In this document: positions 28,856 through 55,089 of the stretch, one piece after another
How positions within the stretch are numbered: position 1 is the first letter of the stretch
Layout of the letters: each line of letters opens with the position of its first letter
From: Lutraria lutraria
Lineage: Eukaryota; Mollusca; Bivalvia; Venerida; Mactridae
Direction of reading: 5' to 3'
DNA length: 64,000 nt
NCBI GenBank assembly: GCA_964023205.1
Contig: OZ026835.1
Span: 9,940,414 to 10,004,413 of the forward strand
Program-made: the position numbers and the translations under genes
The notes under the pieces: generated by a model
Database searches by the model: none
What the model saw: the letters and a program-made list of their open reading frames with translations, nothing else
Told to the model about the DNA's origin: nothing

Positions 28856-31800
28856 ATGTATTTCAACAAACAGATTTGGGCGTGGTCACTGCTCTTTGCT
28901 GCCTTTATTCAAGGTAATTTTATTTTTTAGCTTGCAAACATGACCATTTAGTTATTTACAGAATTTAATGAGTTAAGATTTTTTTGGGGATAGATTTGGC
29001 GATTTTTTATATGATTATGTAAGCCATTGGGTGCACGTGTCCTTAAAATTGCTTGGCTTTTTATTCAGTCTCATAATTATAATCCAGATAATAATATCAT
29101 TACAATCACTGTGTTTGTCTTAAAAACAAAGCTCCTTTTTCCAAAATGACTTCATCGGAGCATGTCCACCTGCTTTGTCCAAGAGCGGTAAGTCTACGGA
29201 CCCGAGGTCTTTAGTTTGAACCCAAGAATCGGCACATGTGCTCAATGACGCATAGGATGAAGACAATATTCTCAGGCCATTCATTGTTAGCCACTGTTTC
29301 AAGTGATTCTTACATTAAAATTGACTGCAACATGCGGAGAACAAGGTTATTACTGGTACAGAATCCAGGAAAACTGGCCAGGTTGAGGTATTATAGGTTG
29401 ACTCATTGTTACACACAAATGTTAATATTCCAAAAATAGTATTGCCCCATTGTTATTATTTCTATAACGGTTACCTCGGATGCAATAATTTATTTTACAC
29501 TTTTTTTAAATTTGTGAGAGTTGTTGCCCTTGTTTGAAAAAATAGAAAAATATAAACCTACGCCAGTTTTTCTTTATGAAATGTTATTGATATTGTGCAT
29601 TTACATATTTTACCATGTGTTTTTATTGAAATGGATGTTTATCTTGTCTTAAATCTTTGAAAAATGGATTACTCTCGTAGATTTCAATACAAATTTAAAG
29701 GAAAATAACTCCAACGGAATGTCGTCGTTTTTAAAAATCCCATGCTTAGTCATTTTCCATTATGGAAACCTATCAAAATTATAAACATTAAAAAATCTGT
29801 CCGCCCTATTTTGTGATATTAGGATTCTAATACCTTAAAAGTACTTATTTTGCAGTATTACGCTTATAAATTGGCTTAAAAATAAAACAGCTTAATGCAC
29901 GCACTGGTAGCTTTGTATGTTTCTTTTGTGTACAATCAGACTATAGTGTTTCCATTGATTTATTTCTTTGAAAGTTTTTTTTCTGAAATAAATGAAAAAA
30001 GATCGTTATAGATAATGTTATTGATAGATCGTAACTTCAATGATGTCCGTGAAGTTGGCAGCCCAGCAGCCTAGCAGCGTGAAGTTGGCAGCCCAGCAGC
30101 CTAGCAGCCCAGCAGCGTGAAGTTGGCAGCCCAGCAGCCTAGCAGCCCAGCAGCGTGAAGTTGGCAGCCCAGCAGCCTAGCAGCCCAGCAGCGTGAAGTT
30201 AGCAGCCCAGCAGCCTAGCAGCCCAGCAGCTTAATATATTTCTACAGTTAAACTGCACCACAAATCATGCAAAAACTTAAAAACGCATGAAGTAATAACA
30301 TTATGTTGCTGTCATGTTTATTAGAAGAAAAAAATACGATTTTTATCGATTTTGTGAATCTGGCAGTGTAGCGGCCGCATAGCGGACTATTATAGTCAAA
30401 CATAAAATGCACAAGAAATCCGGCTAAACACTTACGAATCGATGATATAATTCGATTTTATACCTTTAACGTTCATTAGATGAGAACTTACACATTTTTT
30501 TTTTGTGAAGTTGGCAGCCCAGCAGCGTCACAGCGTAATCTATATTTCTACAGATAAACTTCACAACAAATCAAGAAAAATACTTCAGAATGCATAAAAT
30601 AATGTCAGTCTGTTGTTTAAACATTAATTAACAGAAAATATATAATTTTCATATATTTTTTTTCAATGCGAAATTAGCCGCTGCTAGCAGCGTGAAGTTG
30701 GCAGCCCAGCAGCGTAACAGCGTAATCTATATTTCTACAGATAAACTTCACAACAAATCAAGAAAAATACTTCAGAATGCATAAAATAATGTCAGTCTGT
30801 TGTTTAAACATTAATTAACAGAAAATATATAATTTTCATATTTTTTTTTCAATGTGAAATTAGCCGCTGCTAGCAGCGTGAAGTTGGCAGCCCAGCAGCG
30901 TAACAGCGTCATCTATATTTCTACAGATAAACTTCACAACAAATCAAGAAAAATACTTCAGAATGCATAAAATAATGTCAGTCTGTTGTTTAAACATTAA
31001 TTAACAGAAAATATATCATTTTCATATTTTTTTTTTCAATGCGAAATTAGCCGCTGCTAGCAGCGTGAAGTTGGCAGCCCAGCAGCGTAACAGCGTAATC
31101 TATATTTCTACTGATAAACTTCACAACAAATCAAGAAAAATACTTCAGAATGCATAAAATAATGTCAGTCTGTTGTTTAAACATTAATTAACTAAAAAAA
31201 TATGATTTTCATTTTTTTTTTCAATTTGAAATTAGCCGCTGCTAGCAGCGTGAAGTTGGCAGCCCAGCAGCGTCTAATTTCACGCACAATTTTTTTTTTT
31301 GAAAAATCATATATTTTCATTTAATTAACGTTCAAACAACAGACTGACATTATTTTATGCATTCTGGAGTATTTTTCTTGATTTGTTGTGAAGTTTATCT
31401 GTAGAAATATAGATTACGCTGTTACGCTGCTGGGCTGCCAACTTCACGCTGCTAGCAGCGGCTAATTTCACATTGAAAAAAAATATATGAAAATTATATA
31501 TTTTCTGTTAATTAATGTTTAAACAACAGACTGACATTATTTTATGCATTCTGAAGTATTTTTCTTGATTTGTTGTGAAGTTTATCTGTAGAAATATAGA
31601 TGACGCTGTTACGCTGCTGGGCTGCCAACTTCACGCTGCTAGCAGCGGCTAATTTCACATTGAAAAAAAATATATGAAAATTATATATTTTCTGTTAATT
31701 AATGTTTAAACAACAGACTGACATTATTTTATGCATTCTGAAGTATTTTTCTTGATTTGTTGTGAAGTTTATCTGTAGAAATATAGATTACGCTGTTACG

Positions 31801-34800
31801 CTGCTGGGCTGCCAACTTCACGCTGCTAGCAGCGGCTAATTTCACATTGAAAAAAAATATATGAAAATTATATATTTTCTGTTAATTAATGTTTAAACAA
31901 CAGACTGACATTATTTTATGCATTCTGAAGTATTTTTCTTGATTTGTTGTGAAGTTTATCTGTAGAAATATAGATTACGCTGTTACGCTGCTGGGCTGCC
32001 AACTTCACGCTGCTAGCAGCGGCTAATTTCACATTGAAAAAAAATATATGAAAATTATATATTTTCTGTTAATTAATGTTTAAACAACAGACTGACATTA
32101 TTTTATGCATTCTGAAGTATTTTTCTTGATTTGTTGTGAAGTTTATCTGTAGAAATATAGATTACGCTGTTACGCTGCTGGGCTGCCAACTTCACGCTGC
32201 TAGCAGCGGCTAATTTCACATTGAAAAAAAATATATGAAAATTATATATTTTCTGTTAATTAATGTTTAAACAACAGACTGACATTATTTTATGCATTCT
32301 GAAGTATTTTTCTTGATTTGTTGTGAAGTTTATCTGTAGAAATATAGATTACGCTGTTACGCTGCTGGGCTGCCAACTTCACGCTGCTAGCAGCGGCTAA
32401 TTTCACATTGAAAAAAAATATATGAAAATTATATATTTTCTGTTAATTAATGTTTAAACAACAGACTGACATTATTTTATGCATTCTGAAGTATTTTTCT
32501 TGATTTGTTGTGAAGTTTATCTGTAGAAATATAGATTACGCTGTTACGCTGCTGGGCTGCCAACTTCACGCTGCTAGCAGCGGCTAATTTCACATTGAAA
32601 AAAAATATATGAAAATTATATATTTTCTGTTAATTAATGTTTAAACAACAGACTGACATTATTTTATGCATTCTGAAGTATTTTTCTTGATTTGTTGTGA
32701 AGTTTATCTGTAGAAATATAGATTACGCTGTGACGCTGCTGGGCTGCCAACTTCACAAAAAAAATGAAAAAATGTGTAAGTTGTCATCTAATGAACGTTA
32801 AAGGTATAAAATCGAATTATATCATCGATTCGTAAGTGTTTAGCCGGATTTCTTGTGCATTTTATGTTTGACTATAATAGTCCGCTATGCGGCCGCTACA
32901 CTGCCAGATTCACAAAATCGATAAAAATCGTATTTTTTCTTCTAATAAACATGACAGCAACATAATGTTATTACTTCATGCGTTTTTAAGTTTTTGCATG
33001 ATTTGTGGTGCAGTTTAACTGTAGAAATATATTAAGCTGCTGGGCTGCTAGGCTGCTGGGCTGCTAACTTCACGCTGCTGGGCCGCTAGGCTGCTGGGCT
33101 GCCAACTTCACGCTGCTGGGCTGCTGGGCTGCTAGGCTGCTGGGCTGCCAACTTCACGCTGCTAGGCTGCTAGGCTGCTGGGCTGCCAACTTCACGCTGC
33201 TAGGCTGCTAGGCTGCTAGGCTGCTGGGCTGCCAACTTCACGGACATACTTCAATGTCAATATTGATTTTGTTTGAAAAAATGAATGAGCAAAATAAACC
33301 GTGTTTTAGTACTATGAATAGTTATCTTACATTTTTCTGTTCGAATTATGTTTTATACATTGCATAATTATATCAGTACAGTGCAATCTCTCCAAAGCGA
33401 CACTCTCTTGAGCAACAACTTCCCTTCAACAAAAGCATGATTTCCCATCTGTACCATCTAACTATTAATTTAACCTCTCTAGAGCAACAACCTCTCTAGC
33501 TTCAACAACAACATGATGTTCCCATCTGTACCATCTAACTATTAATTTAACCTCTCTTGAGCAACAACCTCTCAACAACGATATAATTTTGCTTCTCTAG
33601 AAGGATGATACTTTGGAGAGGTTGCACTGTATCAGATATCACTAAGTTTGTCGTGTTCACAAATTTAGCAAATGTACGAATATTTTAGGTAATCAAATCG
33701 CTTATTACAATAAAATGGTTCATGCTATGATTATATAATACGTTTAATGTTCGTTCCTTGATCGACATAAAAAAGTCTGTGATTGGAATCACCACTGCTC
33801 CAGACTAGAGAGGTTCTTCCGCATTTTATTAGGGATAAACACGTTGATAAATACCGAACAATAGACAATACTTTACTATTTACATTCCTATCTGATGACG
33901 TCATATCTTGACGTCATCAAGTTATACATGTATAATAATGTACCTCATAACACATCGAATAAAGCCCGAAGGGCTTTATGTGAAATGTGTATTATGAGGT
34001 CTAAGGGAGTTTACACATCGATAAACGACCAATATGAAAGTTTAATCCTATAATGTTATGAAAAATATTTCCCTCAATTTCAACATTTTCGATTTGAAGA
34101 TGACATAAATTCTTAGGATAGGTAAAAGTATGTATCAAATATATTAATTTACGGATAAACTAAACTGTCTTTTATAGGAATGGAATCAACGCTAAGTGAA
34201 AAACCAGATAATTGTATATTTATTATTGAAATATTGAAGATAGTTATTTTGTAAATCGCATGAATAAAGAAATATTTTTACTGGGATTGACAAAACCGGA
34301 TTTAGTATTGAATGTCATGTTTTCCATGCATATAACCTTTTATGTTTATCATGTAACTCTATTAACCAATTAGAAGAAAAGTTTAATATTAAACTTTCAA
34401 TGTCTCAAATATCAATTGAACTTGAAATTCAGTTGATTTTCTTTGAGCTAATTCTTTGAGAGACACTCAGAGATCGAATTTCTTAACAAGCACTTTTCTC
34501 CTATGTGGATATAAATGAATACTTCGACTCGAATTACTATGTATTCACTATGCTATTAAAGTTCGACATTGATCGGGTGCTTCCGACACTCTTCGGTATC
34601 GATCGGTTGTTTCCGTTATTCATGGTGAAAATCGGTCGATCCCGTTATTTTGAGCCAATTATCGACGATCGGTTTAGTAATCGTTTTCTCATTGATCATC
34701 AAAACTTTATTTATAAATTTGATCATTTAATGGATCAGATTATGCTATAGTAGAACATTTTAGTGTTCTTTCGAAATATACTGCGTCTGAAGTAATTCAA

Positions 34801-37800
34801 TGTACTAGGGTTGTGCTCCCTTAAGTATGTAGAGTTTTCTTATGACTCGGGTAGTTTTCATGATGTATTGAAACCAATTTTTTTGTCACGTATAATTAAA
34901 ACCTTCCTTAAGCTTTACTGTACAGTAGTGCAAATTTTGATTTAAATACAAATAAAACACAAAAGTTTCACAAAGTTAAACCACACCACTAAGCTTCACC
35001 CGTCACACGACATAAAGTCACTGACGTCGTGTCAAACTTTCATCCCTAACTTGTTCTATGTAGTCACCATCCGCACATGTATTTTCTATGTCAAACCGCA
35101 AAAAAAGTTATGCTTATGTACATGTATTATTTTTGTAGGGGTCGTTTGCCAAAATGGAGTCGTGGAAGAGACAGAGTGTAGTAGGCAAGTCCCTAACCAA
35201 CCAGGTAAATATGACAAATTCAAACTTTATTTGAAATAAACATTCACTTGTTGTCTTCAGTCCATGTTATTGCATGTTATAGCACCTTCAACTTCAACTT
35301 CAATGGTGATACTCGGCAAAATCCACTAAGTAGACATTTACGCCATACGGAGAAAAACATGAAAATACAACATCAAGATACATATTCATATTAAACCAAG
35401 TAATCAACTAAGGTGTACATAACTACACAACAAAACTTTAGAATGTTTTTATTTCTGTCCTCTGTATTGCTTAAACAACAAAAGCTATACGTCAAATTAC
35501 AGACCCTACTACAAGCATTCATCTCTTGTATGCAGAATTAATCATTTATAAATTATTCACCGCAAGCTTTATCTGAATTGTGTAATTTCGGAATTTGTAA
35601 ACACGAAATTAGAAATGTTACATAATCATAGAAATGGGAGAGTACTGATATAACAAACCGGGTCCAATATTTCAAAATGCTGTATGATTGAAAGTTGATA
35701 TTTAACCAATTATGTTTGAATGTCACAGTTTATAAGGATATGATTTTACGCCCCTTTTCAACAGTCAGAGTCATATGAGACAGTTCACATAAACATCGTT
35801 CCTGAGAAGAACCAGTACTAGACTCCCATCCTCCGTAAGCAACTGCCTTCTTCCTCACATAAAGACACATGGTCGGTAGCGGGGCTCGAACCCATGACCC
35901 TCTATCAGTGAGGGGTTACAGTGAAGTGAACTCAGCTACTTTAACCACTCAACCACGGAGGCGGGTAACTCAGTGCAGAATAGAATAATTTATTTAACAA
36001 GATAAAATGACTGATTTTTTATTGATATTTTCTAGTTGCTCAAATGTGCTATGACTCAACAGCGAGTGGTTCATCTTACGTGTTTCTAGATGCCTATACG
36101 GCGATGATGTCTATGCCGGAAAACGGGGCCGCAGATTGCACATGCGACCTCAAAATAAACACTGCCGAGGGCGTGACTGAAAAGTGAGTATAACCCAATT
36201 GATCGATGAGACTCAAAAATTCATAAACTAACAACAAGACTTGATTTACTTAAAAGGCCCATTAGCTTTTCGAATTTAGCAATACAGAACAATAGATGCA
36301 ATGATAGCAAAATATAAGAAATACATTTTATTTGCTCTAAAACAATATTACATAATGCCTTTCTTTAGCCACATCTCTTAAAAATGTCATATGCATTTTC
36401 TTAATTGAAAGAAATACTGTGCTACTTCTTTTTATCCCAATGTCTGTTTGTGATTCATTGCAACATGGTACGGGAACCAATTTTAGAAGAAAGTCACTTA
36501 GCAGTTGTCTCCCTTTACCAAGAAGAATTACTTTAATAAATTAGTATTCATCATGTGAGTGACAATCGCTATGTACCATGTAATACAATGATTTGATGCT
36601 ATGTGAGTTAATTGATTTGAAAGAATATTAATGAATATAAAGTTACGGCCCTTTTTGTGGAATGTTTGAAACAAGACTATTAACAGGTGACACACTTTGT
36701 TTCTTAGCTTCGCCTGGCAACCAATCATCTCCAATTTATCGAGCGACTGCGGAACCAGCCTCAAATTTAGCACAGCATCAGCGAATGAAAGCCTGGATTG
36801 TAGTATTACTTCCCGGATTATGAACGGAAATGAGGCAACTATCACTTTGTCACGTGTTGCGGATGTGACGTCATACTCATATGGATATTGCTTATCAGTG
36901 TACATACAAGGTTAGTTTAGAAATGCAGTAGACCCTAACTTAGCGACCACTCCAATATTGAAACCACATCATTATAAAGACTATTCATTTTTTCGTATAT
37001 TCCTCACTGGAATGTCATTCAAGCATTTTTCTCTGTAATTGGCAACTTAATGATTTAGACTGGTTTTAAAGTTCCCAAAGGTGGACTGAATTTTCAAATA
37101 AAGGCAATTAGGAATTCTGATTTGAAATGATTGAAGAATGCCCACTTGTATTTCATTCGGACAAATATATGATTTATGTTCTCAACACGAGTCAGGATGT
37201 TTCACAAACAGCTTGGACGGTTTATATTGCCTTTCAAATAGTTATTCATACCTCATGAACTTTCCATGAAGTAGGCAATAAAAAATCAAGAACAAAATCA
37301 AGATTTCATGAATTCTTCTGGAATTGAATAGAATGCAATAAGGTGGTGACGTAATATACACAGTGTACGTGGTTGATTTGAACTGAAACAGAAAATCAGT
37401 TCCAAATTCATTTATATACTACATAATTAATACTTGGAACACGTTTGCGCTATTAACAACTCAGTGAACGTTACTATTTTTAATGCATTACGTGAACTTT
37501 GTATTAAACGTGTATCTCATAATGAATTGTTGTAAAAGGTTCTAATTTTGTCAATTTTTTATTTCAGCTTCAGGAGGCTCACAGGCTACCGACATAACAA
37601 TACAATGCTATTCCATGAACCCGTCTGAAACAAACGCGCCTACGTCTACAACCACACAACAGACAGAGGGCCCATCACAATCATCTTCGACTAGCCACGC
37701 AACTCATTCAACCAATGTGAACACTAGAAGCGATACCACGCCAACGACTACAGTAATGACTAAATCGACGCCTTTACCAACGCCTCCGCCAACAACAAAT

Positions 37801-40798
37801 ATTGTTACCCACGATTTATTTTCTACGGAAACTACCGAAACAACTACACTACGGAAAACAACAGAATCAACATCGTTACCTTTGACGTCAGGTACAACTA
37901 CAGAAACACCTTTGACGTCAGGTACATCTACAAAAACACCTGTGACATCAGGTACAACTACAGAAACACCTGTGACATCAGGTACATCTACAAAAACATC
38001 TGTGACATCAGGTACATCTACAAAAACACCTGTGACATCTGGTACAACTACAGTTACACCTGTGACATCAGGTACATCTACAGAAACACCTGAGACATCT
38101 GGTACATCTACAAAAACACCTGAAACATCTGGTACATCTACAAAAACACCTGTGACATCAGGTACATCTACAAAAACACCTGTGACATCAGGTACAACTA
38201 CAGTTACACCTGTAACATCAGGTACAACTACAAAAACACCTGTGACATCAGGTACATCTACAAAAACACCTGTGACATCCGGTACAACTACAGTTACACC
38301 TGTGACATCAGGTACAACTACAAAAACACCTGTGACATCAGGTACAACTACAAAAACACCTGTGACATCAGGTACAACTACAGTTACACCTGTGACATCA
38401 GGTACATCTACAAAAACACCTGTGACATCAGGTACAACTACAGAAACACCTGTGACATCAGGTACAACTACAGTTACACCTGTGACATCTGGTACATCTA
38501 CAAAAACACCTGTGACATCTGGTACATCTACAAAAACACCTGTGACATCTGGTACATCTACAAAAACACCTGTGACATCTGGTACATCTACAAAAACACC
38601 TGTGACATCAGGTACAACTACAGAAACACCTGTGACATCTGGTACATCTACAAAAACACCTGTGACATCTGGTACATCTACAAAAACACCTGTGACATCA
38701 GGTACAACACCTGTGACATCAGGTACATCTACAGAAACACCTGTGACATCTGGTACAACTACAGTTACACCTGTGACATCTGGTACATCTACAGAAACAC
38801 CTGTGACATCTGGTACATCTACAAAAACACCTGTGACATCTGGTACATCTACAAAAACACCTGTGACATCTGGTACATCTACAAAAACACCTGTGACATC
38901 AAGTACAACTACAGAAACACCTGTGACATCTGGTACATCTACAAAAACACCTGTGACATCTGGTACATCTACAAAAACACCTGTGACATCAGGTACAACA
39001 CCTGTGACATCAGGTACATCTACAGAAACACCTGTGACATCAGGTACATCTACAAAAACACCTGTGACATCTGGTACATCTACAAAAACACCTGTGACAT
39101 CTGGTACAACTACAGAAACACCTGTGACATCTGGTACAACTACAAAGACATCTGTGACATCAGGTACAACTGCAGATGAACCAATGACATCAGAGACACA
39201 AACTACAGACAGTCATATTTCTACAATGCGTCATGAAGAAGAAAAAACAACAAAATCAATTAATGTTTTTCCATGTGAGTGTTTATCAACTTTGTTCATA
39301 ATTGAAGATTCCTCAATGATTCGCTTATGTTACAAGTGCCCCCAGTTATTAAGAACACTTACTAGTATTGCAAATAAGTTTTTGAAGACCAAATATTCCA
39401 AAATCAATTAAAATTTCAAAACACCGACACCATGTTTGTCTGCCGATCCTAGACGTTTTCCGCCGCAGGCTCGGTCATCTTTTTCGTGTCAATATTTTGA
39501 TAATCATAACGAGCTTTAACTCTTTACTTAAAGAACAATTATCTTTTAAAAAAGTCTGGCTACTTATTCTATCTCTTTCGGGAGGAGTTTAGGTGGAAAC
39601 ACATGTATTTGGATTTTTTTGTCTTATAACACTCAAAAGTCATTCTCATTAATATCACTATGATGCCCTATTTGATAAAAAAAAATGTTTTCCAACTATG
39701 TCGTTAATTCGGTTCTCATCAAATTACAACACTTCATTTTACATTCTATCTGAGAATTATCATGTCGTCCCCTTCACTAGTTGTCACAAACGTGGTCACG
39801 TATATACCAGTTCATATGTGCGTTTTTATCATGTTATCATAATTATCTTTTTAAAATTCAAACTCTTTTTCAGACGGTGCTGTAATTTCTGCTTGTATTG
39901 GACTGGTTCTCATTGTTGGTATTGTGATATGGATTTTCTGTATGTAAGTATGATAACCAGTCTATATACATTCAATATATGATTATAAATGTACACATGC
40001 ATTAAGTGATGTAATCAATAGAAACTGATCAACTAAAAGTGTAGTGATCTATTTCAGAATGGCCCGAGATTTGTGTAACATATTTCCAAATTGTGTCCAA
40101 TTCCAAATAAATACAAGTTAAATAAATATTTATTGGTATACACTGACTCTTTCTTTATTGCTGCATACATTCGTGAATAGATTTGATTGAGCTAATGACT
40201 GTGAAACAATACTGGTGAATAATTTCTTCTATTAATTCTTATTATCATTCTTCTGTTAATTTTTCTTCTGTCAAATATTATTTTGCTAATTCAATTCCTT
40301 CATATTCATCTTCTTTTAGTTATGTTTCTTCTACCTTTTCTTCCGGTCATTCATCATCTTCAAATTCTTTCTTTAAGTCATCATTCTTCTTCTGATGACG
40401 ATAGACACACACAGTTAACGTCATTGTACCTTTTATATTTTAGGACAAGAAACCAAAAATCTTACGGACTTGGATCTACTCTTCCGTTTAACAATTTCCC
40501 CGATAAAAACAAACCATTTCCAAACGGCGAGGATGACAGTATAGACAAAAAAGATGAACATTTCTTAGAAACTGGTCATGATGAGGTAGACCTATCAATT
40601 TGGGACAATAAACAAGAAGATCCTATGAATAGCACAACTTCCACGTTTGAAAATAAGTCTTATACCGCAGTTGATGTACCTGAATCTAATGACACTCCAA
40701 ATGAAGAAGAGACGGGTGTTGATACTAACAAAGACAGTGAGAAACAAGATGATGTAGTTAATGATATGATTGATCTATTAGTGAACCCTGATTCCTGA
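28856..40798 (+). CDS. mucin-like single-pass membrane protein (first of a tandem pair)
   Basis: I reconstruct seven exons: 28856-28913, 35139-35204, 36036-36183, 36708-36910, 37568-39274, 39874-39943 and 40444-40798. All are GT-AG with phases 1,1,2,1,1,2, giving 868 residues. Exon 1 encodes a signal peptide (M-Y-F-N-K-Q, then a W-S-L-L-F-A-A-F core). Residues about 20-175 form a small cysteine-patterned extracellular domain (M-C-Y, C-T-C, S-D-C, L-D-C, Y-C-L, I-Q-C) that could be CUB-like but is not confidently assigned. Residues about 176-720 are a Thr/Ser/Pro mucin stalk, with 10-residue repeats from about 262 to 699. Exon 6 is one transmembrane helix (G-A-V-I-S-A-C-I-G-L-V-L-I-V-G-I). Exon 7 is a 118-residue acidic cytoplasmic tail ending with D-M-I-D-L-L. 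The function is unknown; a heavily O-glycosylated surface receptor or adhesin is inferred. The next gene downstream has the same plan. A non-coding first exon upstream cannot be excluded. Confidence 0.8.
29140..29420 (+). mobile_element. SINE-like repeat in intron 1
   Basis: It shares 'TGYGGAGAACAAGGTTA' then 'ACTGGWACAGAATCCAGG' with the copy at 41521-41810, plus an upstream tRNA-like segment with a degenerate B-box (GTTTGAACCCA near 29213). Two independent copies with the same core support a repeat family. Confidence 0.55.
30043..33247. mobile_element. foldback-like transposon, 3.2 kb, with 9-bp TSD
   Basis: The element starts ATGTCCGTGAAG and ends CTTCACGGACAT. It is flanked by the identical 9-bp repeat ACTTCAATG at 30034-30042 and 33248-33256. 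Each arm, read inward, has four parts. First is a cluster of GTGAAGTTGGCAGCCCAGCAG repeats. Second is a single-copy block of about 260 bp containing GTAGCGGCCGCATAGCGG. Third is a tandem array of 187-bp units, four full copies in the left arm (starting 30505, 30692, 30878, 31065) and eight in the right arm (ending 31447 through 32756). Fourth is a junction near 31273. There is no open reading frame, so it is non-autonomous. Long subrepeat-bearing inverted arms with a 9-bp duplication match Foldback or Mutator-like architecture. It sits in intron 1 of the first mucin-like gene. Confidence 0.9.
33379..33629. mobile_element. pogo/Tigger-like MITE
   Basis: Flanked by TA on both sides, it starts CAGTGCAATCTCTCCAAAGC and ends CTTTGGAGAGGTTGCACTG, giving near-perfect inverted ends of about 20 bp. 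Inside, a block with 'CCATCTAACTATTAATTTAACCTC' shape occurs twice (about 33456 and 33530), a tandem duplication of about 75 bp. Confidence 0.8.
33942..34000. repeat. 59-bp imperfect palindrome
   Basis: The arms ACCTCATAACACAT and ATGTGTATTATGAGGT enclose a central perfect hairpin AAAGCCC-GAA-GGGCTTT. The whole can fold as a cruciform or RNA hairpin inside intron 1 of the first mucin-like gene. It may be a tiny MITE, but no clear target duplication was found. Confidence 0.6.
34001..35138. other. remainder of intron 1, nothing seen
   Basis: AT-rich intron. An 81-codon open frame at 34505-34750 has no domain and no splice support, so I do not call it. Confidence 0.5.
35745..35965 (-). mobile_element. 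tRNA-derived SINE in intron 2
   Basis: On the minus strand the head carries a clear A-box (TGGTTGAGTGG at about 35953) and a perfect B-box (GGGTTCGAGCCCC at about 35893). It is followed by a body running down to about 35745. The spacing between boxes is longer than in a standard tRNA, as in SINE heads derived from tRNAs with a long variable arm. Confidence 0.75.
37880..39190 (+). repeat. 30-bp coding minisatellite (10-residue Thr-rich repeats)
   Basis: About 43 in-frame 30-bp repeats within exon 5 encode variants of T-P-V-T-S-G-T-(S/T)-T-(K/E/V). Two short units (at about 38707 and 38997) have lost five codons without shifting frame. Sequence differences among units are few and clustered in the variable last residue and in the A/T third position of the Ser codon before Gly. 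This suggests ongoing expansion and homogenisation under coding constraint. Nearly every residue is an O-glycosylation candidate. Copy number is likely polymorphic. Confidence 0.95.
40058..40121 (+). CDS. possible alternative terminal exon (short tail)
   Basis: An acceptor ATTTCAG ends at 40057. The sequence after it is in the correct phase to join the transmembrane exon ending 39943 and encodes about 20 residues after the junction, starting M-A-R-D-L-C, before TAA at 40119. AATAAA hexamers overlap and directly follow the stop (around 40105 and 40122). This would give a receptor isoform with a very short tail in place of the 118-residue tail from 40444. It is supported only by splice phase and signals. 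Confidence 0.35.
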
Positions 40799-42668: not shown

Positions 42669-42854
42669 TAATAAATAAATTAAAGTTAATTTTATTTAGA
42701 CTTGTATATCAGTTCAAAGAAGTAAACAGTGATATTTGTTTTTTAAACAAAATGGTCGCCGTGCATGTGTGAGGAGATTGAATCAGTTTTAAATTGGTAC
42801 AGAAGAGCATTTAGATTCATTCTTTTTATTTGGACATTTTAATGAATCGAAATA

Positions 42855-45800
42855 ATGTTTGACAATATGAAGAAATCGTCTGCAATTGTGTCCGTTTTGT
42901 TGATTGTGTTTATATACCAAGGTAAGAGAACTATATATACCATACTTATGTACTGTTCATAGATCCGCCATTATGGATATATATATATATATAATCATGT
43001 TTATGCATTTATTCCAACAAGGGCTCGTTATTTCTTCCACACAACTTTTAAAACTATTTTCCTAATTCAAATATATTATTTTTTGACTCATTTAATTTCT
43101 TATTTAATAGGGTTGCTATTCTATTTAAATCCAGAAATGTAGCACTATAAAACATGAGAACAATGGCCGAGCTCAAATCTTAAATCCATTCTCAACGTAT
43201 TATGGTTGAAATGATAGAGCGGAATTAATGTTAAAATGAATATTCAGTCAGACGGACTAATAGTATAAATAGTATCATCATTGTCTGATAATTATTTACT
43301 CAGACACAAACATTAAAAGACAAGATATGATATCTGAGCTTGGAGACCTATCGCAGATTTATGGCATCGGATGCTGGCTTTTTGGATTGACTCTGTTTTT
43401 ATAATCCAAAGTTAAAACGAAAATTTAAGTGCTATGACTCTCTTGGTGAGCTGGGGCTACAGTATATAATGTCAGCGTTTTATGTAATCTTGTGATAGTC
43501 GTTTTTTTATTAGAACAATGTTGACAATATTAGAATATATCCCTCTGCTTGTAGACTTAGTAAGTTAGTATCATAATTACTAGTAATGTATCATTTTTAT
43601 TCTACGTAATGCGACCTGGATTTAGTTATGGTTCTTAATGTAAACAAATAAAACATTGTTTGAAAATATACTTTTACTCAGAATACATCCTAGGAAATTT
43701 GCCGATTTTTGTCAAATAAAGTATATATTGTATATTGTATTGCTAATTGTAGAACAGGTGATATGTATAATTTAATGTTTTAACATGCTCATTTTCATAT
43801 TAATCATAATTCTATTTCAGTTCGTGGCCAAGCCTGTCCGCAGGGTATCAATGGTGAGTTTTAAAAAAAGTTTAGTTTTCAAAATAAACACTATAATAAT
43901 AAATAATGTTTCTGATTACATTCCCATTAAAGATACGGTATGTTTATAATTATAATTCTTTAAAGCTTGCGGAAGGGTAATAAACTGAGTCAGGTGATGT
44001 ACCATTCCCCGGTCTAGGGTCTCGTGGGGAAAATATAGTAGGTGCTATGTTTTAGGTTATTTAAAAAAGGCATGTATTTTTGTCCCTTTATTACGGCATC
44101 CAAGAAGCCGACAGTCGGGCGAGAAGTGGAAGTTAAATCTGTTTTTCGAGAATAGCTTGCTATATACATACTATTTTACCTAATATGTAAAGCTAAAAAA
44201 TATCAAGCCCGCTCTTCTTCTCTTTCCTTACGTACCGTTATTATACAAACACGTGACATTTGTAAACATGTAGTTCTAAGAAAAGGCGCGACACGAATTG
44301 AATTCATTGGTTACACTCAGCAAGTTCATCATCGTTCACTAAGGCTGTTGTCAAATATTTCAACCGAGGTGCAAGTTCATCCTTTTATTTCACAGCGTAT
44401 ATTATCTTATCTAGCATTTATATTGTTTCGGTGAATAGAATAACTATGTGAATAGTATATCAGTAATACATTGGGCAAATTAAATTATTCGTATAAGTGA
44501 GTAAGTAAGTAAGTAAGTAAATAAATATTTTATTAAAGTGACATGTGTACATGTTACATAATATACAAATATAGAAAGTAAATAACACACCCGGCCCAAT
44601 GGACTTATAAGTCACCTATACAAATCAAGTATAAAGTTTCACATGAAATTATTTTCAATGTTGAATATCATGAGTAAATGAATATGAAATGCACAATACA
44701 ACGTTTTGTTTGATTAAATATATTTTGTTTCTTCTTCTAATATACGCCTTAACAATATACTTGGCTAATTTTCTTGGGAGATTATATAATGTTTCACTCG
44801 ATATGAAAACTCACTGTCATATTTTTATTACCTACATCATGCGTATATGCATTTTAGTCCACGATCTATTCAATATAAGTTATAGGGTATGATATATGTT
44901 TTAACATATGGTTAAAATCAACTGATTATAATAGGAACATGCTCTTTGATAGTACAATCAACGCTTACTTAACATCTACCTATGAATACAGGCCTATATG
45001 CGGACAAATGCCGTGCACTCTTACATAATCATAGAGTAATTCGACAAACTAGATTAACATATGATTAAGGTTAATTGTTTGTAAGTTATCCTCCGTTACG
45101 GACTTGGGTCTCGGATTAAATCACATGATAATGGAAATGAAAATGGACAAAATTTGTTGGAAAGTCCAAACCCATTTGGTAATTAGTAATTGACTGAAAT
45201 AGACCACATTGTGTTGTCTAGCATGATGTTATATGATAAATTTAGATATCAGACAAGTGATCATTGTGTATTATATCATGTTAGTGGTCAGAAATAAGAT
45301 GACCAATTGTCTAAGTTAATGTCCAGTGATCAATCAACGTCTACGTTGACACGCCGTATTATCATGGTGACTGACCAGTCATTCTACATATATTTATATT
45401 CATATAATATAAAGCATAGAAAAAAGTACAGTCAAAATTGCGATAGCGTCAACCTCCGAATTAAGGCCATCCTGTGAATAAAAACATTCTTTAAAACCCC
45501 GTCCTTGATTATTAAGAACGAAATAAACACTGAATAAGGGTCACCTATCGATAAAGGTCACATTTTGACTTTCCCAAGGGTGGACATTGTTCACAGGTTT
45601 CACTGAATGTATTTAAAGTAAAACCTCACTATGTGACCACTTCAACAGTACATCCACCTCATTATAAAGTCATATTTATTTTCTGGACATTTTCCGGAGC
45701 TTTTCTGTGTTTCAATCTGATAATGATAACATGCTCGGTATTTATCTTTTACTCCAATATGTTGCCTATCGTAGATTGAGGTTTTACCGTAATTCATATG

Positions 45801-48800
45801 TAAAACTGACTATACATTTATTATGTAAACCATTTAGCATGCAAAAACTAACAATAATAGCTAACCTACAATTTTTGTTAAAAATAAAAAAATACTGTAC
45901 ATTTGATGTAATATAAAATAAACAGATGTAAATAAAGTTGGATAAATGCATTAAAAGAAATACTATAATCAGGAAGAAACTACCAAACTGAACAAAACAC
46001 CATCTAAAAAGCACCAATTAGTCAACATAGCGAACGTTAAGAATGACCACGCAAATTAATATACATTAATCAAATTCCTAACTCATTAACGTATGATATT
46101 GCTGTTTAGCTGACCTTTAAAACGCCCAAACAAAGAAACCGCGAGCACCAAAAAAACAATCCCCGCCCGTGTCCAGACTTCTGAAGCTACGAAGACAAGT
46201 TGAATCATATAGATGACGTCGATGAAAATACGCAGTCAAAGATATATTATTTAGAACCAATCAATAAAGACTGACTTCAGTGTCAGTTATTTATTTATGT
46301 TTCTATACATATTCTATGAGTATAAAAACGGACACAACCGAATTGAAATTTAATAACAGCATTCTTGACTAATATTATGGATGCTTTTTCTTCATATAAA
46401 ATAACAGAACGAAATAATAAATTTTATTATTTTATTAAATGCGTTAAGCTCATCGTCATCATAAAATTATATGCATTATATCAACATACAATATTATACA
46501 AACACAGGCATGCAGCAAATGGCAAAATACAATTATAGTTCATATTTAAGATTAGTGGAAAATAAACATATCATAACAAATTATATGTATAGCAAATAGA
46601 GGTCAAGTTAATGAAGGTGAAAACTGACAGGGAGTTTCAAGAGGGGGGGGGGGGGATCAATAGTATACAAAATTATAATTTTATCAAAACAAGTTCATGT
46701 TAACTATGATTATAAGTATACAATAAATATTAAGATAATCTGAGAAAACTTTGTAGTGAGTGAACACGGCATTTAAAACCTTAATTTTATTTTTGAGACT
46801 GATTTTCTAGATTTCGAAAATTACAAATGAAATATGAAGTATGTACTTTCCAATTATTTTGTTAACATACTCGTCTATGCTCATATAACTGATAATGTCT
46901 TTATTGGTTAAGGTCAAATATCGTTCCATAGCGTTTATGGTTAAGTCCATTAATTAACCATGTTTGTCAATGTAAGTCATTAGGAATGTTTATAATTGTT
47001 TTTTCTTCATGTTGTTCTGTACTATTAATGTAAACCACATGACTGTTACCTTTTTAATCATCAAATACCATGACAGATATCGACCACTAGCCCGGCACTA
47101 TACCACATTCATTTTTTTATATATCTAATATCCTGGTGACTCAATACCACCATAAAATATGAGTATTAATACCATAAAAATGTGAGTAATGTTATTTTCA
47201 GACTGTACAATCTATGCTAAGTAACGTAAAATAATGTCTAATTGTTTTAGGATAGGTTTGCTTGACATATATTGATACAAAGGAAAATTTAACCTTTTAT
47301 TCAATTTTCATACTTCCAGGAGCGGGGGGGGGGGGGGGGGGGGTGCTAAAATTCGGTCGTATCATAATTATTAAGGTGTTAAGTTAAAAGAAACCTACAT
47401 TCTTGCCGACAAAATATCTAGAAAATCAGAGTACTATGAAGTTGATGTGATATTTGCGTACATTTATGATTATTACATGAGTTTATAAATAGTTACATGG
47501 TGTCAAATGTGTCAGCCATTGGCATAGTCTGGATACATTGTAGCATAGATGACCTTCTTTAATGTTTTACCGGAGAGACACTGAATAAAGGGACACATAA
47601 GTAGAGCGTATAAACTGTTCTATACAAGATAACGTCTTGAACATTTAATAGCTAATTCATCTTTTTTCAGAAAGTCGTTCGAACTGAACATTTTAAACTA
47701 TTTCCTATTCATTACTAAACTAGTTGGTCGAAACTCGTTACCTAGCAACGTGTTGTAATTTCTCTGTCAATTCGTTGAAATTATGCAATTACTTTTGATA
47801 AAATAACTTTAGAGGTGAACTATCGATGCCCTTAAAATAATATAAGTCGGTCCGCTCGGTTCCGAACTAATAGATATTAGCGTTGTTTAATTGTTAGTAA
47901 TGATCATAAAACGAATAATTTGTATGGACGATATATGTAAATAATTAAGTTATGCCAGGCAGTGACAGTTATGGTATTATTGTGATTATGAACTTTGACC
48001 ATTTAACACAAGTGCTCCACAATATACAAACACCGTCATACTTAAAGGGTGTTTATCAATCATCTAATCAATTGTCAAAATTCTCTACAAACTTCGAAAG
48101 CTTCGTTTTGTCCAAAATAAGTTTGTGACCAGACATTTCGTTGCTAAGTACATCGGTGAAATGAATATATGAGTCTTGGGAGAAAATGCCAGCGCCTGTT
48201 ATTGCACGAGTTATACAAATAATATGGGTCAACGATATTTTTGCACATCGTTGCTATAAAGACATATTTGGGAACAAATGTAACGGATTTTAAATCAAGA
48301 TGGACCATTATCACATTTAACTACTTACGAAGAATTGTCTAAAGACAATAGGCCGCTAATATGAGGTGGTCTCTAAGCGGAGTTATACTGTATATCTATC
48401 AGTGTTCTATTTTTGTCTTTTTCAGCTGCTCACATGTGTGTACCAGGAATTTACACGAGCGACCGGGTTTTTATCGACACCACAACATACAATACATTTC
48501 TGAACAATTGTACTTGTTCCTTTACCACCACATCTAATGTACTCAAGCTTCTAACTTATATGGCCCCGAATTACCCACAATGCAACTCTGCAATAAGGTA
48601 AGTCTTACGAGAATTTATAATTTCGAGTTTCTGTTTCTTAATACTTTAGATTGGTAACAAATTTCTATCATGGTTTGACAATAGTTAAATAATTCCAAAT
48701 CAGATTTTTTTGCGCAAACGGAAATACATCGATGAAAATATATTACTTAGGTAGTAGTCAGCCCTGAATTCAGTAAATGCTTGTTTATGCACAGTTTTCT

Positions 48801-51800
48801 GAAAAGCAAACCTATTTATATTAGTGCCCCTTTTCAAGGCACACCCTTGCTTTAGTCATACATGTCTATTAAAACCCGCCTTTTGAAAACGGACAGTCTT
48901 AAAGAATGTCCCAATTCAGAGGCGAGAATAAACCCCAAATATTAAAACTGATACAAAATCTCTATGTACATCATTGGGTATCTCGATACAAGTAAATGTT
49001 AATATGATTGTATAAGATTGACAGTAAATTGCTAAACGTTTGTTTTGTTTTAGGATACAGACGGAATCCGGAAACAACATGCGTTTTGAGTGCCTGGGTT
49101 CTGGTACATATATCGACACAAGCATTCATAAATCAGGTCAAGCGACCTTTGAGAAGTACTCGGAATATTATGACAATAATTATTGTCTGATGTTGGAAGT
49201 GGCTGGTCGTAAGTATTCTCATATATAACACGATCTACTTTCCGATCGATAATTGTTAATTACTGTATTGATGACAAACTTACCTTTCTGTACGCGAAAA
49301 TGTGCACTCATTTAATTACTTCCAACAGTCGATATATGGTTTATAAGTACATGTATTAAGATCTTGATATATCAAATATGGAATTGTTATCAACATTTAC
49401 CTAAGAAACATTGGTACAATATATCCGACCACATTTCTACCGATGTGTCTTAAATCTGATGACTCGAAAGATTCTATCAATATTTTCACGAATACTTTTA
49501 TTTCAGAGCCTACAGATACGATAACTGTAACATGCACAGCCGATATTCCCTTAGAATATCTTGAAAACAGCACTGTACAAACGTCATCAAATAGTGACTA
49601 TGCTTTTAACGATGTCACAAGCACCACGTCAGCAGAAGTTTTTCCGATCAATAACGTCACAACCGATGCTACCGGTTATGTAGCGGAATTGACAACATTA
49701 CAGCCGACTAACCAATCCAACATGACATTTGATAATATAACCGAACCTGTCATGCCCTCACCTGAAGCACCCTTAACAAATACAACAGAAAATGATATTT
49801 ACTTTACCTCAACTGAAACTGCTGTTGAAATTACAACAGAATCGAAAGCAACCCAAGAAACACTCACAGAATCTCAACTACAAACAACAGAACAAGCCGC
49901 ACAGGTACAAACAAACGGTACAACCATGACCGTGGATCCTATCAATACAACTATGGCAGCGTACGAGTCCTCAGTAGCCGATGTGGTAACTGGACAAACC
50001 ACCACAACAAGCGCAATATCAGAAAGGCAAACGTCAGCACAACCAATAACAATATCTACAACAAGCGGTACGGTACATACAGCTTTAAATGACGTGACGA
50101 TTGGAAGTCAGACTACCGTCAGTCCACAGGTCGATGTGAACAACTCTACGGAACATCAAACGAGCATTAATAATATGATGGTCGATCCAAAACTTGATAA
50201 ACATCAAGATATGTATGTGTCCATGGATACGATGAACTTTACAAAAGTCAATACATCTTCAAATGTTGAGAATTATATATCCGACACAGCACCATCGCGA
50301 ACAGAAGAGTTTGTTGACACTTCGTCTAATTCATCAGAAAATGCGGATAACTACACAATATCCTTCGATAACATGATTAGTTCACCAGTTCTTAACAATG
50401 AAGTCAACATAACCGACAATTTTACGACCGCGACAGACATGCTATCGGTAAACACAAATGTTTCTGAAACAATTGATGTTACTGGGGATACGAATACCAA
50501 TGGTACTAATATTGTCACTGCAATTGTAACCGGTACAGTGTTATTCAATTCGAGTGGAGATAATTCACCTAAAACAATTCAGACGATAGATACAGTACCG
50601 CAAGAAATTCTAACTGATGGTTTGAACAGAAAAGACCTACAGCCAAGACAAACAACAGCTAAATACGACATCTCTTTCATGTCAAACCTTTCGGATAACC
50701 TTTCTTCAAACAAAGCGATTGAATTTTCCTCACCATCTCCACTTTTCGATGGCAATATGGAAACAGCACCAATAACTCCACCGACTGACATATCCAACTC
50801 GTTGATCATGATACCCAAGTACGCTGAAGCAATTGAAAACAGTACTGGGCATTCTAACAACACTGCTAACCAGACAACAGATTATGATCTTAATTTTCCT
50901 GGTATGAATACATTAACAGAATCTGAAACCGCCAATATCGCGTTTACTAATAACGTTTTGTTAGAAACTTCGCCGTTTACAGCAAATGAGCCTCGGGTGG
51001 TTACTGAAAATTCTGAGCCTATAATTCCGATTGAAAATATTACAAACGGGGTATTTGAAAACGTTCAAACTAACACAGAGGCATTTTCATTTGATACTCA
51101 GAACGACCAACAAAACTCATCTACCGTCGATCCATTAATCGATGCAAATTCAACAGGTATCCTTAACAACGCCTCACTTCTGTCCGATAGCAATTCAGCA
51201 AACTCGTTTACAATGGACACTCTATCAGGTGACTCCATTTTTATCACAGATAGGACGCCAGTAAATGAAAACGGCGCTACGACCACAGAAAATGTCCAAT
51301 TGTTGTCTACTACTGTCAGTACTACAGAGTCAACAAAGAATTATCAGGATCTAATGCCATCTGAAACTATATCATCCTTTGACATGCATAACAACCTGCA
51401 TGATACAGTAATAACAACATTTTCTAAGCAACCAGAAGCCACAGATGGTGGATATAAGGAAGTTACGACAATCACAACTACAACAGATAGTTACATTCCT
51501 ACAAGCGAAGGTATAAATGAACCATTTGTCAATGTCGTTTCATCCGAATTTACAAATTCTATGAATAATGTGCCGAGTAGTCGACCTGAAGCAATCCATA
51601 CACCGGAATACATGAACAGTAATCTGTCAGATTCATTTATGGAACAGAATGTTACCGGGCTTGATGTCGCTGGAAATTCAACTGAAACAATGACTGCTGA
51701 TGAAGTATCAGTTGTTGAACCATCGAAAAGCATTAACATCACTGATTACATGAAAAGTAACGTGTCGGATTCAAGTGTTGAACAAAATAAAACCATCTTC

Positions 51801-54800
51801 GACGCCATTATAAATCCTGCTGAAAACATGAGCGCAGATGGGGCTAATTCTGCCGATCAAAGTACCAATGTCTCTGAATATTGGACCGATAGTCTGACAG
51901 GCAACGATACTTTCGTTAATCAAATGGAAAACGCAACCAATACTGGATCTATGACAATTGATCAATTATCAGTAGTTGAACCAACAAACGAAATACACAC
52001 GTTTAATTATTTGAACAATAACGTGTTGGATTCAAATATGGAACAAAATAACACCACTTCTGATGTTCTCGGAAATCCAGCTGAAACTACAACCACAGGT
52101 GGGGCTAAGAACACTGATCAAATATCAATCGTTGAACCATCGGAAAGCATCCACTTATCTGAATATTGGGACACTAATATGTCAGATTCAAAACTAGATC
52201 AACATCTAACAGATATTGGTGTCCCAGGTATTCCAGCTGAAAATATTACTACCGATGGGACAGTAACTGCAGATCAAATATCGATTGTCGAACCATCAAA
52301 AATAGTTCATGTCTCTGAGTATTTGAACAATAACGTATCGGATTCAAGCACGGAACATAATAGCACAGGTGTAGATGTCCAGGAAAATCAATTTGAATCC
52401 AGTGTTTATCATACGCCAATGATAGCAGATCAAATATCGATTGTCGAACCATCAAAACGTATCCACATCTCTGAATATTTGACCAATAATGCTTTAGATT
52501 CAAACCTAGAACAAAATGTCACCGGTATTGATGTCCATGGAGATCTTCACGATAATGCAATGACAGCTGATCAAATATCGATTGTTGATCCATCAAACAG
52601 TATCCACATCCCTGAATATTTTAACAATAATGTTTTAGATTCAAACCTAGAACAAAATGTTACCGGTGTTGATGCTCATGGAGATCAAATGGAAACTCTG
52701 GCCAACGCAGAGAGTTCTGTTGCGGATAAAATTTCTATTGTTGAACCATCGAAGTCAATTCATGTGTCTGAATATCCAAACAATAATTTGTCCGATTCAA
52801 ACATTGAAAATACCACAGCTGGTGATTGGCGAGGTGATACTGTGCTAGTTGAGTCCACTACATGGTCTCCGGCATCAACTATTCATGACGCGGGTGCTGT
52901 TCCGACTGGTACAGTTGACATGTTACCCGAAACATCTACTTTTGATACTAAAGTGTCGTCATCAGTTGCAGCAAACATCGACGAAACCACAATATCATTT
53001 ACCAATAAAGTATTATCCACAGAGAGTGGCATTAGTAGCACGGAATCTGAGTTAACAAAGGAAACCTCCACATTTAATACTTATTCAAACGTTCCTCCAA
53101 TGCCCAACATAATATCTGAAGAAATCGTGCCCGAACAAAGCATTCCTAATGAATCAGTCCTACCAACAGTAAATACAAACTACATTGATAACATTGATAA
53201 CGTGCATGCGTCAAAGGCAGCTGAAGTTTTGGCAAATATTGAAAACCTTGCTTTAAATGAAAGCGGTAGTGTTATTTACGATGAATCATCTACACATGCT
53301 ACTGATACAGCAACCATGGCGGACAACGAATCACATTCAAATATGATGAAGTCAGCAGTGGATATATTATCAGAAATTGAGAAACAAGTTATTACCGACA
53401 TTATGACCTCTCGACCTGTAGTTGACGATAAAGTAGCCATTGAACAAACTACAAACGGCGTTGTACCTCCATTAGGATTGGAATCAACGTCTGCTTCTGA
53501 GACTGGCACTAATACCATTTCTTCCACCACACCAGTCGTTCCAACCAGTGACTTGCTTGAACCAATTGAATTTAAAAACTCAGACGAACCTGCTAAAGAA
53601 ATACTAAGTCCAAAACCTTCCACATTGCCTGAAATAATAGCTGCCACTGATAGTGCATTTAGTAAAGTTCCAACAACTCCAAATGCATTTGATAAAGTAC
53701 CGACAACTCCAAGACGAAGTTTCAACATTGTTGAAGACACGATGGTGGTTACTGAAAGTCCTAGATCTGTTGAAATTGGAGCAAACACCGTTAATGATAA
53801 AGAGATGAACGTTTCATTTGACAAAGAGAGCAAAGGACTAGCGATAGACACAAACAACAATACATACAGTAAGTACATGTAGTAGTAATCTAACATTTGT
53901 TACATTCTGTACATCAGTATCAGTTTCTTCAAGATAATTCAACCAAAAGTTTCTTCTAGATAGTTAACCAAAATGTGTCGAATTGTGTTAGTTGAAATTG
54001 AACCACAATAAGAAAGTCTTATTGTGTCTGACTGATCAAGTCTTATGTTCATTTAGTTCAATTCTGATATCAGGGTCAACTCTTCAGATCACTAGATGGA
54101 GATTAGGATATGATAATTTTCTGTTGGGTTCGCATTCATTTTTGTTCATTACTAACTTATAAGGAATCGCTGCACAAATTCTTCATTGATAAAGATTTTC
54201 AAATATATTTATATTTATTTTGCTATTGTAAAAACAATTATTTCACGTAATCAATGAGAACTTTTCTGCCAAAAGTAAACTTCGTAGCTATCGAAATACG
54301 AATCAGGACTTAAACCGTAGTTGTTTTTGCAATTGAAGAATTTATAGACAAGTAGCTGTCTTACTCAAATTTGACAGAACTCTGTCGTATAAGATGTTGC
54401 GTTTTATAAGCAGTTTAGTTAAAGTGAAAATGATTTTTCTTTCAGTCATCGTGGTTGGCATAATTGCTGGGCTTGTTGTCCTAGCAACCGTAATTGGAAT
54501 AGTGTGTCATAACAAACGAAAACGGTAAGTAAAAGAAAATGATCTACCTTGATAAATGCTATCTAAATACCTTTTTTAAAAAATAAAGATGAATGCATAA
54601 TGACTACTACATGTTTAATACGTGTGTTCAATACAAAATAGAATAGGCAATTACAAACGTTCATTTTGATCTTTAGCCGAATTTATTAACAATCGAACCT
54701 ATGAAAAAATGTCACTTTTGGGAAAGACATAATGTTGCCTTTATTGACTGCAGGTTGCCTTAATTCGGAGGTCATTGTATAATAATCAATGACGTTTTTT

Positions 54801-55089
54801 TAAAGAATGACCTTGCCTTTATTTACAGGGTGGCCTTTACTCAGAGGTGGCCGCTAACACCGGTTTGACTGAAATTTATTGTTCTCACATATTACATTTT
54901 TGTTACAGACGATCGGAGAAAGTAAACATAAGTGGAACCGGAATTGATCCGGCAAGTCATCAAAACAGAGCTTATGACAGTGAAACTAATGATCCAGAGC
55001 AGGGAACCAGTGTTGTAGAAAATGATCCCGAAAGTAGTCTGTCAAATGGCGAACAGAATGGCATGTCTTCAAAAGCGCAAGAATATTAA
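42855..55089 (+). CDS. mucin-like single-pass membrane protein (second of a tandem pair)
   Basis: I reconstruct seven exons: 42855-42921, 43821-43853, 48426-48597, 49054-49208, 49507-53868, 54446-54524 and 54909-55089. All are GT-AG with phases 1,1,2,1,1,2, giving 1682 residues. Exon 1 is a signal peptide (M-K-K-S-S then I-V-S-V-L-L-I-V-F-I). Residues about 24-155 carry the same cysteine pattern as the upstream gene (M-C, N-C-T-C, P-Q-C, F-E-C, Y-C-L, V-T-C). Residues about 160-1595 are a single 4.4-kb exon rich in Thr, Ser, Asn and Asp, with many N-x-S/T sites and no cysteine clusters. Repeats of about 45 residues lie at about 833-1253. Exon 6 encodes one transmembrane helix (V-V-G-I-I-A-G-L-V-V-L-A) followed by basic H-N-K-R-K-R-R. 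The cytoplasmic tail is about 64 residues and contains N-R-A-Y. The exon 4 donor could also lie 3 nt earlier. The function is unknown; a long glycosylated surface protein is inferred. Confidence 0.8.
43160..43350. mobile_element. MITE copy in intron 1 (GAGCTCAAATCT family)
   Basis: It starts near CCGAGCTCAAATCTTAAAT and ends near GATATCTGAGCTTGGAG. The internal 'CGTATTATGGTTGAAATGAT' shaped block and 'AACATTAAAAGACAAGA' block align with the element at 60567-60830. It is degraded. Confidence 0.5.
44496..44640. repeat. (AAGT)n tract and possible LINE 3' remnant
   Basis: About six AAGT units (44496-44520) are followed by 'AAATATTTTATTAAAGTGACATGTGTACATG'-like sequence recalling the 3' end of the LINE at 17446. 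The identity is uncertain. Confidence 0.3.
45429..45605. mobile_element. MITE, CAGTCAAA.. family
   Basis: The ends CAGTCAAAATTG and CAGGTTTCACTG are divergent inverted repeats. The inside has 'TCAACCTCCGAATTAAGGCC' and 'AAGGGTCACCTATCGATAAAGG' blocks shared with 62054. It belongs to the same broad family as the copies at 54735 and 58602, and lies in intron 2 of the second mucin-like gene. Confidence 0.6.
45617..45790. mobile_element. MITE, AGTAAAACCTCA family
   Basis: The inverted ends AGTAAAACCTCACTATG and TTGAGGTTTTACCGT bound 174 bp of AT-rich sequence. A related fragment with 'AGTAGACCCTAACTTAGCGACCA' shape lies at 36930-37020. Confidence 0.6.
45791..48345. other. rest of the large intron 2 of the second gene
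   Basis: AT-rich intron with a 13-G run at 46643-46655 and a 20-G run at 47324-47343. Overlapping open frames on both strands near 45707-46017 are chance. No gene seen. Confidence 0.5.
48346..48392. mobile_element. MITE end fragment
   Basis: AGGCCGCTAATATGAGGTGG followed by TCTCTAAGCGGAGTTATACTG resembles the right end of the CAGT-type elements elsewhere in the window. A matching left end was not found, so it is a partial copy just before exon 3. Confidence 0.35.
51580..52840 (+). repeat. degenerate coding repeats, about 9 copies of about 45 residues
   Basis: Within exon 5 of the second mucin-like gene a module recurs: D-Q-I-S-I-V-E-P-S-K, then S-I-H-I-S-E-Y, then L-N-N-N-V-S-D-S, then L-E-Q-N-V-T-G-x-D-V and a variable spacer. 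Copies differ by substitutions and by spacer length but remain in frame. The N-V-T/N-S-T positions give a regularly spaced N-glycosylation sequon. The first two copies and the W-containing copies (near 51880 and 52165) are the most diverged. Confidence 0.9.
53882..54445. other. intron 5 of the second gene
   Basis: AT-rich intron. The preceding exon's donor GTAAGT at 53869 is used here in preference to the stop 10 bp downstream, because it keeps phase 1 and joins the transmembrane exon. Confidence 0.6.
54735..54872. mobile_element. MITE fragment, CAGTCAAA.. family, in the last intron
   Basis: The left part is TGCAGGTTGCCTTAATTCGG and the right part GGCCGCTAACACCGGTTTGA then CTG. The inverted words (TTCGGAGG/GAGGTGGCC) match the families at 58602 and 62054. 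The right end lies about 36 bp before the final exon. Confidence 0.5.

Follow-up and report, generated by a model that had tools for sequence, protein, structure and literature searches.

The membrane mucins of vertebrates are the closest analogues that we could find for the locus presented here. In the MUC3 cluster (MUC3A, MUC3B, MUC12, MUC17) the membrane mucin genes lie in tandem, and their products combine a region from a long repeat-coding exon with one transmembrane (TM) segment and a cytoplasmic tail. Among primate orthologues this long exon has diverged more rapidly than the parts coding for the N- and C-terminus, and turnover of tandem repeats has been reported within the exons rich in Pro, Thr and Ser (PTS) (PMC9578598). 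A 2026 medRxiv preprint on human mucins (PMC13345508) states that a large exon with tandem repeats of variable kind is common to all mucins. We analyzed a stretch of 64,000 nucleotides from the bivalve Lutraria lutraria (assembly GCA_964023205.1, contig OZ026835.1, positions 9,940,414 to 10,004,413 of the forward strand), called the window below, in which two neighbouring genes, gene 1 and gene 2, lie head to tail on the same (+) strand. The two are likely to be paralogues from an ancient duplication, whose products would be tethered, mucin-like glycoproteins of the cell surface that cross the membrane once.

The pair resembles the MUC3 cluster in its tandem arrangement and in the sequence of long repeat-coding exon, single TM segment and cytoplasmic tail. 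In contrast, the MUC3-cluster proteins contain a SEA domain, and their tails carry a class I PDZ motif (PMC9578598); neither was detected here, and the present pair has an N-terminal cysteine head in place of the SEA plan. Pfam gave no SEA match in searches of the heads, the stalks, and the TM and tail (limits E 1, 10 and 0.1). Vertebrate membrane mucins already show the combination of kept ends and a fast stalk; novelty may lie in the head and in the difference in stalk chemistry between two neighbours.

The exon models were built by hand from the genomic sequence alone and then checked by script. Gene 1 extends over positions 28856-40798, with its first ATG at 28856, and its seven exons code for a predicted protein of 868 residues. 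Gene 2 extends over 42855-55089, where the stop codon ends, and its seven exons code for a predicted 1682 residues. The original prediction had set the outer limits at this same ATG and this same stop, and its seven exons with intron phases 1,1,2,1,1,2 were recovered in both genes, with GT-AG borders at all 12 introns. The lengths of the internal exons modulo 3 (0,1,2,0,1) are likewise identical, and the predicted order is common to both: signal peptide, cysteine head, giant exon, one TM segment and tail. Splice sites were ranked by a score built from textbook frequencies against the + strand sites between 20 and 60 kilobases (kb) of the window; among 2249 GT sites the 12 donors rank in the top 0.1-4.8%, and among 1745 AG sites the 12 acceptors rank in the top 0.1-13.9%. 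An alternative acceptor of similar score lies at most 60 bases away in five of the 12 cases (gene 1 exons 3 and 5; gene 2 exons 2, 5 and 6), and all these alternatives keep the frame except that of gene 2 exon 2. As predictions, the two tandem gene models are confirmed.

Exon 1 (28856-28913 in gene 1, 42855-42921 in gene 2) carries the start codon and a presumed signal peptide, and ends in phase 1. The signal peptides were judged by eye; a 19-residue hydropathy window above 1.6 is present at residue 10 of gene 2, and none at the N-terminus of gene 1. The head begins in exon 2 (35139-35204; 43821-43853), a short phase 1-1 linker with the first cysteine, C33 in gene 1 and C28 in gene 2. Exon 3 of gene 1 (36036-36183, phase 1-2) contains the M-C and C-T-C motifs with Cys2-Cys4, and exon 4 (36708-36910, phase 2-1) contains Cys5-Cys7 including Y-C-L. 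In gene 2, Cys5 is coded together with M-C and C-T-C by exon 3 (48426-48597, phase 1-2), and exon 4 (49054-49208, phase 2-1) holds Cys6-Cys7, again including Y-C-L. The last strand of the head with the eighth cysteine opens the stalk exon in both genes (ITIQC in gene 1, ITVTC in gene 2). The shared motif order proposed originally was found for M-C, C-T-C and Y-C-L, but the last motif reads I-T-x-x-C instead of I/V-T-x-C, and each mature head has eight cysteines, one more than had been listed, the added one being that of exon 2.

If the two heads had a common ancestor, how much of it can still be recognized? The cysteines stand at residues 33, 46, 76, 78, 105, 122, 152 and 172 in gene 1 and at 28, 38, 62, 64, 86, 104, 135 and 152 in gene 2, with spacings of 13-30-2-27-17-30-20 versus 10-24-2-22-18-31-17 in the same order; C23 of gene 1 was excluded, by eye, as part of the presumed signal peptide. 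When cysteines were placed at random with both ends fixed, this match was equalled in 2 of 200,000 placements by log-ratio and in 10 of 200,000 by absolute difference. BLASTP of head against head, run as a two-sequence comparison with composition adjustment and masking off, gave E 0.005 with 22% identity over 138 columns. The score of the global alignment of whole heads was reached by 4 of 1000 shuffles, and exon-wise scores by 57 of 2000 for exon 3, 3 of 2000 for exon 4 and 24 of 2000 for the start of exon 5. Among 1824 stop-to-stop segments of at least 25 residues on both strands of the window, the pattern M-C...C-[TS]-C, picked after the genes had been seen, occurs twice, once in each gene. 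All seven cysteines tested are paired in 10 of 12 alignment settings. Homology of the heads rests mainly on the order and spacing of the eight cysteines; the conserved head of the original prediction is upheld as a cysteine frame, but little else is kept.

The stalks are very different from each other, and a search for similarity between them detected none (best E 0.95). Exon 5 of gene 1 (37568-39274, phase 1-1) continues after Cys8 into a Thr/Ser/Pro stalk with a tandem array of 30-base-pair (bp) units at 37878-39168, coding for T-S-G-T-[ST]-T-x-T-P-V. The array comprises 43 units and 424 of the 868 residues, a 44th piece of the parse being the remainder of the protein and excluded. The 10-residue repeat reported earlier describes 41 of the units, but two further units have 7 residues. 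The units differ from each other by whole codons only. The 41 ten-residue units have 18 distinct DNA sequences, and Thr occupies four positions in 41 of 41. Ser and Thr make up 57% of the stalk and Pro 10%, and it has no sequon for N-glycosylation, where shuffling gives 2.5. By the definition used for lineage-specific mucins, PTS repeats over at least one third of the length, gene 1 fits: its PTS repeats lie in a large exon and exceed that share. Pfam matched this stalk to Extensin_1 at E 2.4e-19, but with 70.2 bits against a cut-off of 105, and we rejected the match as one of low complexity. The repeat is open in more than one frame, and the open reading frames of 502 residues on the reverse strand and of 351 residues in a second frame were rejected as shadows of a stop-free repeat.

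Exon 5 of gene 2 (49507-53868, phase 1-1) passes after Cys8 into a stalk rich in Asn, Ser, Thr and acidic residues, with 26% Ser plus Thr and 5% Pro. Repeats of about 45 residues had been described for it; their starts do lie 39-52 residues apart, but only nine diverged units were found, at about residues 835-1264, which is less than one third of the stalk; the parse into units covers this block only. In the whole stalk there are 53 N-sequons, where shuffled sequences have 37.3 on average and 10 of 5000 shuffles attain the observed number; this excess sits mainly in the repeat block. The repeats look constrained at the protein level: the pooled ratio of nonsynonymous to synonymous substitution rates (dN/dS) is 0.44, and the nonsynonymous proportion pN is below the synonymous pS in 36 of 36 pairs. 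These values are biased to conserved residues, since a protein motif was used to cut the units, and because each unit enters several pairs, the pairs are not independent. By its low content of Ser, Thr and Pro, gene 2 is at most mucin-related under the mucin definition, and its product is better called a stalked N-glycoprotein, as predicted. Both stalk exons stay open past their donors (39275-39411 in gene 1, 53869-53882 in gene 2). Retention of intron 5 would end the protein shortly after the stalk and without the TM segment, giving a possible soluble form.

Exon 6 (39874-39943 in gene 1, 54446-54524 in gene 2, both phase 1-2) codes for a single TM segment, and exon 7 (40444-40798; 54909-55089) for the cytoplasmic tail and the stop. 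Hydropathy gives one strong internal peak per protein, at residue 731 in gene 1 and 1597 in gene 2, followed by a polar tail, so that both products have the single TM segment and cytoplasmic tail of tethered mucins. The membrane anchor had also been offered as a mark of common descent, and here the original prediction did not hold up: the alignment score of TM plus tail was reached by 10 of 1000 shuffles, and that of the tails without TM by 1110 of 2000, i.e., no similarity. Pfam matches of the TM and tail (best DUF4834, E 0.0022, 19.3 bits versus 27.8) were set aside as matches of hydrophobic helices.

The introns add less than their phases suggest. Four of the six intron phases in each gene are phase 1, and in human and mouse genes this phase occurs preferentially behind signal peptides and in connection with 1-1 exon shuffling (PMC7259759). 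Because phase 1 is usual in secreted modular genes, and because the phase-2 intron of the head is displaced by 9-19 residues in all 12 alignments, the agreement of phases is weaker evidence than it appears. The head intron of gene 1, at residue 91, maps to gene 2 residue 72 in two settings, 75 in eight and 82 in two, and comes into register solely when the alignment is forced exon by exon. In 7 of 12 settings the intron between head and stalk misses its counterpart by 3 residues, and in the other 5 it falls inside a gap. The offset of the head intron may reflect intron movement, separate gain or misalignment.

Several results weigh against reading the pair as duplicated membrane mucins. The head intron of gene 2 sits at its own residue 91, in the same phase as that of gene 1 and at another position in all 12 pairwise alignments. 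With BLOSUM62 and gap costs of 11/1 and 12/2, five and three cysteines are paired and Cys5/Cys6 are not; the same two are unpaired in BLASTP, in the exon 4 alignment and in MAFFT (6 of 8 cysteines paired), and their pairing is the weak point of what we take as the head alignment. Identity of the heads is low. With the gene 2 head as query, phmmer placed gene 1 exon 4 among chance matches (E 8 to 9), and the reverse query, by the gene 1 head, returned none of the exons of the gene 2 head at E 10. The tails, as said, have no similarity. The gene 2 stalk lacks the Pro/Thr/Ser repeats of mucins and is not mucin-like by content, and outside its repeats the 33 sequons, against 26.7 in shuffles, were reached by 436 of 5000. 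Protein-database searches (E 1, 10 and 10) gave 22, 12 and 234 candidates, none of which scored, in a collection not known to hold animal proteins; scans of viral and prokaryotic contigs gave 22 and 21 pattern matches with 0 confirmed, which says little for an animal gene.

Part of this would be expected if the genes were not paralogues at all, and unrelated stalked membrane proteins had come to lie side by side with a common secreted plan and default phase-1 introns. The heads are only 22% identical, phmmer with one fails to find the other at a useful score, the tails are unrelated, the head introns differ in position, and genes of this kind usually have phase-1 introns (PMC7259759). Such an origin is nevertheless improbable, given the match in the spacing of eight cysteines, a head pattern confined within the window to these two genes, and their position as neighbours on one strand with the same seven-exon order. 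Replacement of the large exon, as the original prediction had allowed, would mean exon shuffling, in which symmetric phase 1-1 ends allowed one stalk exon to be exchanged for another. The exon has such ends in both genes and the stalks share no detectable similarity, but it also carries Cys8, and a whole-exon swap needs a donor with a matching ITxxC end; both exons have one, their 5' ends align (24 of 2000 shuffles), and repeat turnover within PTS exons has been reported for the MUC3 cluster (PMC9578598). We regard the swap as unlikely; since the stalk exon also codes for Cys8, the data agree better with turnover of repeats within a single exon than with its replacement.

Decay or assembly damage of one or both genes, with the long open exon being merely a stop-free repeat, is very improbable. 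The gene 1 repeat is indeed open in more than one frame and homogeneous, with its 18 distinct DNA units among 41, but twelve plausible splice junctions with consistent frames, the constraint in the gene 2 repeats and the open TM and tail exons speak for working genes. A further explanation concerns function: the proteins might serve on blood cells or epithelia as receptors for pattern recognition or adhesion, with a head that binds sugars of microbial or self origin and a tail that signals. The architecture would fit, and each tail has one N-x-x-Y (NKSY in gene 1, NRAY in gene 2), a motif on which no weight is placed; a motif scan found no immunoreceptor tyrosine-based inhibition motif (ITIM), NPxY or class I PDZ pattern in either tail. 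We mention this role as a tentative possibility. The exon plan, BLASTP and cysteine spacing support a tandem pair of paralogues that share a head scaffold, are anchored in the membrane and have diverged in the stalk, and ancient duplication is the origin that we favour as likely.

No Pfam family reaches its cut-off for either head. The gene 2 head resembles positions 2-88 of the 119 of DUF7245 (PF23897) at E 0.026; its 15 bits are below the curated cut-off of 27, and the gene 1 head has no match to this family at E 10. When the gene 2 head was shuffled with its cysteines fixed, none of nine shuffles matched DUF7245 and one of nine matched another family at E 0.1. This likeness may serve as a lead only, and no paper naming DUF7245 was found in the open-licence literature searched. 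With CUB domains the heads share a small extracellular format, a loop of about 17-18 residues from cysteine to cysteine and a strand-like hydrophobic alternation; in contrast to this likeness, no CUB profile was among the Pfam matches at E 10 for either head and no CUB match among PDB sequences. The PDB matches that the heads did give, to antibody heavy chains and penicillin-binding protein 2X, had E 0.28 or worse and were rejected. The original prediction had asked for further paralogues in the flanking sequence. In the window no third copy was found by the M-C...C-[TS]-C pattern or by phmmer, although a third copy equally diverged would escape phmmer. Among the papers listed from the same literature, none named a family for this pair or described a close case.

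The pair is flanked on the minus strand by PRDM-like/zinc-finger coding sequence at 21210-22919 (Pfam PRDM2_PR, E 3.9e-8, and C2H2 zinc fingers, E 7.1e-19) and by a Tctex-1 domain of the dynein light chain family at 58859-59467 (Pfam, E 3.5e-29). Rfam gave no match in the window. Intron 1 of gene 1 contains a fold-back element of 3.2 kb (30043-33247) with 36-bp perfect ends, whose inverted arms of 38-bp and 187-bp tandem repeats are 97% alike over 1233 bp. It is bordered by a 9-bp direct repeat (30034-30042, 33248-33256) with a third occurrence in the window at 35297, and it resembles a fold-back or Mutator-type insertion with a target-site duplication. The left end of the window (1-10199) is filled by a 29-bp minisatellite of about 352 copies with 93% matches and strong strand asymmetry, the GC skew being 0.44-0.48 in the first five 2-kb windows. 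Other tandem arrays lie at 26135-26651 (28-bp units), 57137-57669 (28-bp) and 59742-60057 (44-bp).

On the favoured reading, the products of the pair would work as follows. The signal peptide would send the protein into the secretory path. The head, small and probably beta-rich, would be placed at the tip and closed by up to four disulfides, and the stalk exon would provide an extended sugar-coated spacer that holds it away from the membrane, with one TM helix and a short tail as the anchor. The head would be the likely binding part, and the stalk would determine how far the head reaches, together with charge and glycan coat. The cysteine frame was probably kept in both heads after the duplication, while stalk repeats were lost, gained and re-amplified in a single phase 1-1 exon, toward a Thr-repeat stalk with O-glycans in gene 1 and a longer, Asn-rich and acidic stalk with many N-glycan sites in gene 2. 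More speculatively, and with doubts of our own, the genes may represent a lineage-specific "head on a stalk" receptor family with a previously unrecognised eight-cysteine head. One symmetric exon would then be a site of free diversification. Through turnover of its repeats, neighbouring paralogues would switch from an O-glycan (Thr) stalk to an acidic one with N-glycans or back, changing glycan chemistry and reach with the frame of the binding head kept.

If the heads are not one family, a tethered mucin-like pair with an unplaced head would be added to the kind known from vertebrates. If they are one family, the locus would show clearly, in a natural setting, that parts of one receptor can change at separate rates: the disulfide frame is kept while the stalk sequence and the predicted type of glycosylation change within a single exon. 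One could then ask whether it is the chemistry of the stalk, and not the head, that distinguishes duplicated surface receptors.

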